A stretch of DNA of 50,672 bases from Minisyncoccota bacterium (GTDB lineage Bacteria; Patescibacteriota; Minisyncoccia; Phycocordibacterales; UBA9973). Of the stretch, positions 11,631 through 25,100 are shown piece after piece. The DNA lies in NCBI GenBank assembly GCA_018062425.1, contig JAGOSH010000005.1:1-50672 (forward strand), given 5' to 3'. Each line of letters begins with the position of its first letter. The stretch's first letter is position 1. The notes below the pieces were generated by a model. It was given only the letters and a program-made list of their open reading frames with translations. It did not search any database and was not told the DNA's origin. A program made the position numbers and the translations under genes.

Positions 11631-12266
11631 TTAAACTGCTTGTAATACGACCACCTGACCTTCTTTGCCCTCTAAATCTTTTCGTTTTAATGTCAGCTTG
11701 TCTGCCGTGTCTGGATTCTCTTGCCCAATTTCTTTCAAGAAAACTTTAAGTGTGGCAGCGTCATAATCCATAGGAATGATCAGTTTCGGTTCGAGCGATG
11801 AAGCCAACCTAGCGGCTGCTTTCGCGTCAATTAAATCATCACCTAAAATTGGAATAAATAGGATATCTGGCTCACCGATTGATTCACCTGCTTCTTTGGA
11901 TATAGTGCTATTGGAAAGAGCGCCAAGAAAACAAATATTGATCCCATCCACTGCAAAAGAATAGATGGTGTTTACGTATTTTTTTGGTTTTTGTGGGCCA
12001 TCTGATAAAATCCCTTTAACAAAAATATCTTTGACTTCGTAGTCCCCTGGTCCACGGATAACAAAAGGCTCTCTCTCGCCGTAAGCCAACTGCTCTACTC
12101 CATTATAATCCGGATGATTCGTAGTCAAAAGCGCGATGTCAGCACCAAAGCGTGCGGTGATGCCAGACTTAGATTCCCGACTAACAGGATTGATGGCCAA
12201 AACCATCTCTCCTTGACCGATTTTGAAAAATTGTTTGCCGTAATATGTAATAATCATTACTTGCAT
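11631..12266 (-). CDS. MBL-fold protein with degenerate metal site
   Basis: A 211-residue protein with the fold pattern of the small metallo-beta-lactamase family (UlaG/YtkL-like): IITYYGKQFFKIGQG start, ALLTTNHPDYNGV at the place of HxHxDH, ICFLGALSN at the place of the 'H/G-D' strand, and LIIPMDYDA at the place of the terminal PxHYD. Several canonical metal ligands are replaced (no HxHxDH; Asp instead of His in PMDYD), so it is probably not a normal zinc hydrolase. An alternative start is the ATG three codons downstream (MIITYY). First gene of the gyrA operon; divergent from rpsA. Confidence 0.65.
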   Translation of the reverse strand: MQVMIITYYGKQFFKIGQGEMVLAINPVSRESKSGITARFGADIALLTTNHPDYNGVEQLAYGEREPFVIRGPGDYEVKDIFVKGILSDGPQKPKKYVNTIYSFAVDGINICFLGALSNSTISKEAGESIGEPDILFIPILGDDLIDAKAAARLASSLEPKLIIPMDYDAATLKVFLKEIGQENPDTADKLTLKRKDLEGKEGQVVVLQAV

Positions 12267-12299
12267 AATAACATATTTTTTGTTAGTCTCATAGTATTA

Positions 12300-12399
12300 A
12301 AAGCAGGATTTAGGGTAACCCTTTTAGCTTATTTTTCCACACTTAGTGGGGAGGCGAAAAGAACCTAAAACCCATATCCGCTTTCAAGCGGATTTTTTT
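12300..12399 (+). promoter_or_regulatory. rpsA leader with terminator-like hairpin touching the start codon
   Basis: A perfect stem, ATCCGCT (12376-12382) with AGCGGAT (12387-12393), is followed by seven T's ending at the base before the rpsA ATG at 12400. No plus-strand gene lies upstream, so the hairpin can only act on the rpsA leader. GGAT-T-TTAGG-like bases at 12306-12314 can pair with CCTAAA (12364-12369) and ATCC (12376-12379), which would break the terminator stem. This is the layout of an attenuator or riboswitch. A second small stem CCAC/GTGG lies around 12337-12350. TAGTAT at 12292-12297 is a possible -10 box. Confidence 0.55.
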
Positions 12400-13488
12400 A
12401 TGCAAAAAGAACCAATAGTAGTAGAGGAAAATTTAGTCTTAAAATCAGTAACTGACCGAAGCCAGAGCAAGCCCGAAGTAGGGTCCTTGGTAGAAGGAGC
12501 AGTTATTTTGGTTAAGAAATCATCAGTTTATGTTGATCTAGCACCTTTTGGTACTGGTATCATCTACGGCCGAGAATTCATCAACGCCAAGGACATTATC
12601 AAGAAGATAAACCTAGGCGACAGCATCAAGGCTAAAGTCGTTGAAGTTGAGAACGAAGACGGTTACATCGAATTGTCTCTAAAGGAGGCAAAACAAGCCC
12701 TAGCTTGGAGTGAAGCCGAGAAAGCTATCAAGAACAAGACCGCACTAGAACTCGAAGTAAAAGAAGCAAACAAAGGTGGCCTTATCCTAGAATGGCAAGG
12801 CATCCAGGGCTTCTTGCCAGCGTCTCAATTGAAAGCTGACCACTACCCTCGCGTACTGGACTCAGATAAAGACAAGATATTGAAAGAACTCAAGAAATTG
12901 GTAGGTGAGAAGATTTCTGTAATGATAATCTCTAGTCTGCCAAAGGAAGGCAAACTCATATTCTCTGAAAAAGACAACAACCCAGAAGAGAAAAAAGAAA
13001 TTCTAAGCAAATATGAGATCGGAGACGATTTGGAATGCGAAATTGCTGGTATTGTAGACTTCGGCGTATTCCTAAAGCTAGAAGACAACCTAGAAGGCCT
13101 AGTGCACATTTCTGAACTCGACTGGGGCTTGGTAGAAGACCCAAGATCTATGTTTAAAGTGGGCGAGAAGGTGAAAGCTAAGGTAATCGAAATAAAAGAT
13201 GGTAAAGTATCACTTTCTATCAAAGCGCTCAAGGAAAACCCTTGGAAGGAGTTTGAAGGAAAGCTAAAGAAGGGCGACATCATCAAAGGAGTCGTTATAA
13301 AGTACAACAAACACGGAGCCTTGGTATCCATCAAGGAAGGTGTAGCTGGACTAGTACACAACTCAACCTTTGGCACCGAATCCAAACTACGTGAAGCATT
13401 AGAACTCGGCAAGACTTACAACTTCCAGATTACCCTATTTGAACCAAAGGATCACAAAATGACCTTAGTTTTCCTAGACCAAAAGTAA
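12400..13488 (+). CDS. rpsA: Ribosomal protein S1 homologue (four S1 domains)
   Basis: A 362-residue protein starting MQKEPIVVEEN. S1 binds mRNA on the small subunit. Four S1-type OB domains are visible: about 22-95 (VGSLVEGAVILVKKSSVYVD...EDGYIELSLKEA), 107-180 (LPASQL motif), 195-270 (GVFLKLEDNLEGLVHISELD, the most canonical) and 283-360 (GALVSIKEGVAGLVHNS). E. coli S1 has six; four is usual for this lineage. An in-frame GTG at 12346 would add 18 residues but would encode the terminator-like hairpin, so the ATG at 12400 is preferred. S1 may matter more than usual here because the 16S lacks an anti-Shine-Dalgarno. Confidence 0.9.
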   Translation: MQKEPIVVEENLVLKSVTDRSQSKPEVGSLVEGAVILVKKSSVYVDLAPFGTGIIYGREFINAKDIIKKINLGDSIKAKVVEVENEDGYIELSLKEAKQALAWSEAEKAIKNKTALELEVKEANKGGLILEWQGIQGFLPASQLKADHYPRVLDSDKDKILKELKKLVGEKISVMIISSLPKEGKLIFSEKDNNPEEKKEILSKYEIGDDLECEIAGIVDFGVFLKLEDNLEGLVHISELDWGLVEDPRSMFKVGEKVKAKVIEIKDGKVSLSIKALKENPWKEFEGKLKKGDIIKGVVIKYNKHGALVSIKEGVAGLVHNSTFGTESKLREALELGKTYNFQITLFEPKDHKMTLVFLDQK

Positions 13489-13507: not shown

Positions 13508-13541
13508 ACAAAAAACCCTCGACCTAGGTCGAGGGTTTTTT
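13508..13541. terminator. Bidirectional terminator between rpsA and the lysozyme-like gene
   Basis: A perfect inverted repeat AAAAAACCCTCGACCT/AGGTCGAGGGTTTTTT, with U-runs in both directions between convergent genes. Confidence 0.95.
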
Positions 13542-13569
13542 GATTAGTATTTTATTTAAAAAGTATTTA

Positions 13570-23529: not shown

Positions 23530-25100
<1,571 letters not shown>

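Follow-up and report, generated by a model that had tools for sequence, protein, structure and literature searches.

A conserved leader RNA with a terminator and a competing antiterminator precedes rpsA in one order of Patescibacteria and may set its expression by attenuation

In a genome (G000) that has Candidatus Nomurabacteria (Patescibacteria) as its closest named relatives, the gene for ribosomal protein S1 (rpsA) is preceded by a leader RNA of about 100 nt that has covarying stems, carries two competing pairings, and is restricted to rpsA, as demonstrated by sequence comparison. We favor, with moderate confidence, the reading that this leader acts in cis as an RNA switch and controls rpsA by transcription attenuation, probably through feedback by S1. 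The window analyzed here is a contig of 50,672 bases.

The rpsA gene (12400–13488, plus strand) encodes a protein of 362 aa that contains S1 domains (PF00575, E 9.5e-37), and its best NCBIfam matches are all 30S ribosomal protein S1. It is a predicted monocistronic unit, given the terminator found by scan at 13509–13542 on the same strand. An in-frame GTG extension from 12346 was rejected because it lacks conservation, in contrast to the start at the ATG. The 5´ neighbor is a divergent metallo-beta-lactamase-fold gene (11631–12266, minus strand), which agrees with the claim of an earlier note on this DNA that no gene lies upstream on the rpsA strand, and the neighbor is divergent in 62 of the 72 related loci where it is callable. 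The hairpin before rpsA is therefore not the end of an upstream gene, and this candidate reading was ruled out. A probable promoter on the plus strand (12261–12289) consists of TTGCAT (12261–12266) and TAGTCT (12284–12289) separated by 17 nt. It was assigned from the arrangement in relatives, which share the layout (e.g., TTGCAT-N17-TAGACT in L114), and was not picked up by a consensus promoter scan of the window; the transcription start at about 12295 is a guess. The putative -35 hexamer also holds the opposite-strand start codon of the divergent gene.

The leader lies immediately 5´ of rpsA on the plus strand and contains, from 5´ to 3´, a 5´ tail, the 5´ strand of helix P1, a UAAC internal loop, a variable helix P2, the 3´ strand of P1, and the terminator hairpin, which forms its 3´ part. 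The tail AAAGC-A-GGAT (12300–12309) is also the 5´ strand of the antiterminator, as suggested by its predicted pairing with 12376–12384, by energies, and by conservation in the genus. The 5´ strand of P1, GG-A-TTTAGG (12306–12314), is matched by the 3´ strand CCTAAA-A-CC (12364–12372), with predicted pairing and order-wide covariation (0/300 null sets). The internal loop is formed by GTAACC (12315–12320) and, as seen in the alignment, by AA (12362–12363) on the opposite side; its UAAC is invariant among 54 aligned genus leaders, and UAAYC is typical across the order. P2 (12321–12361), a stem of variable length and sequence, is defined by fold prediction and covariation (0/300). The terminator hairpin ATCCGCT-TTCA-AGCGGAT (12376–12393), which has 7 pairs and was identified by terminator scan and comparison, shares its 5´ arm and first loop bases (12376–12384) with the 3´ strand of the antiterminator. 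The U-run of seven T (12393–12399) begins with a T that is paired in the stem and ends against the ATG at 12400.

A predicted intrinsic terminator is thus located between the inferred promoter and the start codon. The earlier note had described this hairpin with its seven T's abutting the ATG, and both the sequence and the terminator scan bear it out in the window. The contact with the start codon is peculiar to this genome and is not conserved, since the distance from the U-run to the ATG ranges from 0 to >100 nt in relatives. The base rate of leader terminators was drawn from the window and the related loci. Among the 14 window genes without a codirectional upstream neighbor, rpsA alone has a sense terminator at most 150 nt 5´ of its start; in the related loci, such a terminator is found upstream of rpsA in 50/59 cases, compared with 12/113 for other genes without a codirectional upstream neighbor. 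The single-sequence fold of the leader is not unusually stable (z -1.42), so the evidence for the leader is comparative.

To describe the leader within the genus, 80 rpsA loci were fetched and their upstream regions read, and 54 leaders were aligned (alignment A2). The consensus starts with ATTAAAAGC-n-GGATTTRGGGTAACC and continues through a variable hairpin to AACCTAARCC; after a short linker come ATCCGC-loop-GCGGAT and a U-run. The first three pairs of P2 are altered on both sides in 19, 11, and 28 of the 54 sequences. A covariance model (R1) searched in 246 genomes gave one strong match per genome in 76 of the 80 genus genomes (E ≤ 2.4e-8), and all 73 strong matches with listed rpsA coordinates lie directly 5´ of rpsA on the same strand. 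G021 and G029 have no full-length rpsA match, and rpsA of G057 starts at a contig edge. Sixteen weaker matches were fetched. Four of them (L310 and L318–L320) contain the complete core, including UAACC, and belong to rpsA leaders in other genera; the rest are ordinary terminators. Placement of the element upstream of other genes was rejected, as the weaker non-rpsA matches examined are plain terminators.

Across the rest of the order, 75 genomes from other genera and families supplied rpsA upstream regions, and a core recurs among these that is composed of P1, a UAAYC loop, P2, one to three mostly A bases, and the 3´ strand of P1. About 17 other families maintain the pairing of P1 and P2 despite sequence differences, as illustrated by the divergent P1 stems of L218 (TTGCCTGA/TCAGGCAA), L223 (AGCCACAAG/CTTGTGGCT), and L203 (CCTTTTGGA/TCCAAAAGG). 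An independent parser built for the core layout and counted at a score of at least 23 detected 36/75 order-level rpsA upstream regions versus 4/135 reverse-complement controls, and a filters-off covariance model matches most of 46 order-level loci. Beyond the order, a core-like parser score was reached by 4/40 class-level loci from other orders, which is near the 4/135 control rate, and one of them (L250) belongs to the same order; in other classes of the phylum, it was reached by 0/20 loci. We thus see no convincing copy of the leader in the sequences from other orders.

In the order-wide covariance-model alignment (A3), each of the 17 pairs shows changes in both strands, and the covariation score reaches 0.527 versus 0.167 after shuffling, in an alignment that was fitted to the structure and leans toward it, and with a shuffle comparison that is inflated by the kinship of the sequences. 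For this reason, we added a phylogeny-aware null in which the substitutions of each column are moved to random branches of the tree (300 sets). The order-wide pairing of P1, P2, and the terminator each exceeds all null sets (0/300). In the genus alignment under the same null, P2 alone covaries; P1, the terminator, and the antiterminator show no covariation there because they hardly vary, and the comparative case for P1 and the terminator is drawn from other genera and families. The check named in the earlier note, whether homologous leaders preserve the stems, comes out in its favor, since the order-wide comparison shows conservation with covariation for P1, P2, and the terminator.

The part downstream of the core is more diverse. 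A separate terminator was not found by the scan in 21/51 order loci with the core. In L214, L215, L220, and L231, which represent four families, a U-run with eight or nine T in twelve bases follows straight after P1, so P1 could itself act as a terminator. L218, L219, L223, and L236 have no U-run; their core stops 5–15 nt short of the ATG, a position from which it could block initiation. This combination of a constant core with an exchangeable output part looks like a protein-binding leader or a riboswitch.

The tail and the terminator compete for the same bases. Residues 12300–12304 and 12306–12309 can pair with 12376–12384 (ATCCGCTTT, the 5´ arm of the terminator and the loop start), whereas 12306–12314 alternatively pairs with 12364–12372 to form P1; the tail GGAU is common to both structures. 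The choice between terminator and antiterminator that the earlier note had attributed to 12306–12314 is therefore reproduced by the computed pairings. The antiterminator explains why at least 90% of genus leaders retain the first two T's of the loop: the terminator leaves these bases single-stranded, but they pair with the AA of the tail. Across the 54 genus leaders, 91% of the antiterminator cells are paired (0.914 versus 0.600 in the null, 0/300), with too few double compensatory changes for a covariation signal (covariation score 164/300 versus the null). Across genera, the duplex between a leader's own tail and arm has a mean energy of -7.23 kcal/mol versus -6.43 kcal/mol for permuted combinations (23/5000 permutations). 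The antiterminator is re-created with quite different sequences in L205 (AGTAAACGGTTT/AAATCGCTTACT), L183 (TAG-T-CGGA/TCCG-C-CTA), L190 (CAG-T-CGGA/TCCG-C-TG), L177, and L208. From these alignments, a mutually exclusive antiterminator is judged to be conserved, with its pairing kept in the genus and re-created in several other genera.

The predicted folding order is consistent with a switch. All folding energies take in no ligands, kinetics, or NusA, and the genomes are mostly metagenome assemblies. In the growing window leader, the antiterminator is the most stable fold through 12390 (-24.1 kcal/mol), compared with -20.3 kcal/mol for P1 alone at 12386–12388. From 12392, P1 with the terminator is the best fold, reaching -28.4 versus -24.1 kcal/mol for the antiterminator at 12394. 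A point against strict competition in this genus is that the overlap of the antiterminator with P1 is limited to GGAU, so some P1 pairs can form alongside it (antiterminator with a 5-bp P1 core, -22.4 kcal/mol). The antiterminator is predicted before the 3´ arm is made in 52/63 genus-set leaders versus 39% with shuffled tails. Since GGAU is shared by P1 and the antiterminator, a firmly closed P1 should favor the terminator. In L202 and L203, which belong to one genus, the 3´ strand of P1 (CCAAAAGG) serves in addition as the strand that pairs with GCCACCTTTTG in the antiterminator, so that a closed P1 frees the terminator. The predicted energies and the comparison of lineages thus imply that P1 formation would switch rpsA off, and they support both the folding order and the closed P1 as the OFF state.

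In the mechanism we propose, RNA polymerase would leave the promoter and the tail AAAGC-A-GGAU would first pair with the terminator 5´ arm AUCCGCUUU, permitting transcription into rpsA. A ligand that binds the core (P1, the UAACC internal loop, and P2) would hold P1 closed, which would use up the GG of the tail, free the terminator 5´ arm, and allow the hairpin to form and transcription to stop in the U-run before the AUG. S1 itself would be the most likely ligand, because the core is found before rpsA alone, and such negative feedback would keep the S1 level right. Both S1 as the ligand and the closing of P1 by S1 binding are what we infer from this gene association. In E. coli, S1 binds single strands without specificity, which counts against a specific role as the ligand.

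A dependence of this organism on S1 is plausible because the 16S rRNA gene (23530–25100, minus strand) ends in ...GGATTAATTCAATT with no CCTCC anti-Shine-Dalgarno after helix 45, and a Shine-Dalgarno-like 4-mer precedes only 1 of the 45 large ORFs in the window. These values match the earlier description of the genome as one without Shine-Dalgarno use. S1 is thought to be the most important protein for translation without Shine-Dalgarno pairing. The E. coli 16S 3´ end contains GGUAACC...GAACC; a reading of the core as an imitation of this end was dropped, as the 16S of the window has no GGUAACC there. Helix 18 (530 loop, at about base 518) of the same rRNA, GAGGCU-CCUAAUC-UCGU..ACGA-G-AGCCUC, shares the stem-bulge-stem topology and a UAAYC bulge with the leader core, and this likeness is possibly rRNA imitation or chance.

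The same attenuator could respond to a ligand other than S1, which we regard as rather unlikely. Candidates are a small molecule (as in a riboswitch), another r-protein such as uS2 or uS4, and a general factor that the UAACC loop would sense. The invariant UAAC in the genus alignment and the resemblance of P1, loop, and P2 to a compact aptamer fit this alternative, as does the requirement of E. coli uS2 for bS1 in repressing its own operon (PMC10931766). The helix 18 likeness, with its UAAUC bulge, also points in this direction, but it is a single bulge that was found by looking for it. In the ribosome, helix 18 lies near uS4 and uS12 rather than S1. Strong matches before rpsA alone weigh on the other side, and metabolite riboswitches usually recur before several genes of one pathway. 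The exclusive linkage to rpsA thus argues against the small-molecule riboswitch that the earlier note had also considered.

A ligand would be dispensable if the hairpin were a partial terminator of fixed, unregulated strength, whose effect is to reduce rpsA transcription or to release a short RNA, with an incidental antiterminator. The modest z of the single-sequence fold is compatible with this, but P1 and P2 covary far beyond what it needs and persist in families without a separate terminator, and the conserved loop TT, unpaired in the hairpin, pairs with the tail AA; we therefore consider it very improbable. Translational control, in which leader folding would chiefly mask the start region and the U-run would serve ribosomes as an unstructured site bound by S1, likewise receives very little weight from us as the main function in this genus. 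The four loci with the core close to the ATG and no U-run are in its favor, and in a genome without an anti-Shine-Dalgarno, U-rich leaders may matter for S1-dependent initiation. In the genus, however, the GC stem and U-run are conserved while their distance to the ATG varies widely, as expected of a terminator; translational control may be true in other families. Leader-peptide attenuation of the trp/phe type was rejected as no uORF is conserved: the window leader contains no ATG, and a short ATG uORF occurs in the first 60 nt of only 20/54 genus leaders. In 17 of these 20, and thus in 17/54 genus leaders (A2), the uORF is a four-codon ATG-GAT-TTR-GGG-TAA that overlies the core and ends in its UAA.

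Attenuation with S1 feedback, our preferred reading, was compared with known systems. Rfam 15 (4227 models) gave no cis-regulatory match at the gathering threshold in the window or in 20 related loci. Phe_leader and Trp_leader were rejected as identities because their matches are below threshold. Phe_leader (RF01859; 32.4 bits, gathering 55) resembles the leader in having an A/U-rich long-range stem followed by a terminator, but the rpsA leader has no leader peptide and the gene is not pheA, and this match is a chance likeness of layout. In gamma-proteobacteria, S1 competes with the 30S subunit at the rpsA initiation region, which has no Shine-Dalgarno, and translation is repressed (PMC10931766), in line with the earlier statement that S1 autogenous control elsewhere uses a different mechanism. 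The two systems share the gene, a folded leader, the lack of a Shine-Dalgarno, and proposed negative S1 feedback; here, in contrast, a terminator and an antiterminator precede the ATG in another fold and another lineage. A conserved fold of the gamma-proteobacterial type around the rpsA start was not found, and the conserved part is P1-UAACC-P2 with the terminator at varying distances from the ATG.

A mechanistic parallel is Bacillus subtilis rplJL, where L10(L12)4 is reported to act on an r-protein leader by transcription attenuation (PMC4538822) in the way proposed for the rpsA leader. The protein, operon, RNA, and phylum differ, and the mechanism is shown by experiment there and predicted here. 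Eckert and Weinberg (2020) described 20 predicted ribosomal leaders, none of which precedes rpsA, and their main text names no Patescibacteria (PMC7247131). Their leaders are likewise covarying RNAs consistently 5´ of one r-protein gene, with the ligand assigned by the same "only gene" reasoning. By sequence, the rpsA leader has these traits, being a structured 5´ UTR consistently 5´ of an r-protein gene with covariation support. Searches of the main texts of open papers found no rpsA attenuator and no papers joining Nomurabacteria and riboswitch. The element is most likely an r-protein leader whose mode of action is attenuation and whose fold, gene, and lineage are apparently new for such leaders.

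More tentatively, and with somewhat less than even confidence, the leader may represent a novel class of RNA that is limited to a single order of Patescibacteria. Here S1 would recognize the UAACC internal loop and, by closing one helix, shut its own gene through lineage-specific outputs, in organisms with no anti-Shine-Dalgarno. With such a class, S1 autoregulation by transcription attenuation would be seen for the first time, possibly through imitation of 16S helix 18. Its four outputs would be a separate terminator with a 5´-tail antiterminator, a separate terminator with a P1-strand antiterminator, P1 followed by a U-run, and a fold beside the start codon.

Patescibacteria make up a large share of bacterial diversity, most of it uncultured, and the open literature searched holds almost nothing on their gene control. 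The leader is a concrete predicted RNA switch on the S1 gene in an organism whose 16S has lost the anti-Shine-Dalgarno. If S1 is the ligand, a protein so far known for binding single strands without specificity would have a defined RNA target of high affinity in this core. The exchangeable outputs around one core provide a natural series for the evolution of r-protein leaders. The leader is open to in vitro testing with synthetic DNA and purified protein, with no culture of the organism needed.

The regions flanking the core contain further recurrent sequences. The motif ATTAnnAGC or a close variant is present 5´ of P1 in many order loci (L171–L245), even those without a terminator, and is possibly a single-strand binding site. 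In L070, L073, L078, L080, L089, and L099, palindromic inserts of the form CAGCC..GGCTGATCCGCC..GGCGGA occur upstream of rpsA, located in the gap between promoter and P1, in the gap between terminator and ATG, or in an enlarged terminator loop. From their sequence and positions, these inserts resemble a dispersed repeat that has left the core untouched.
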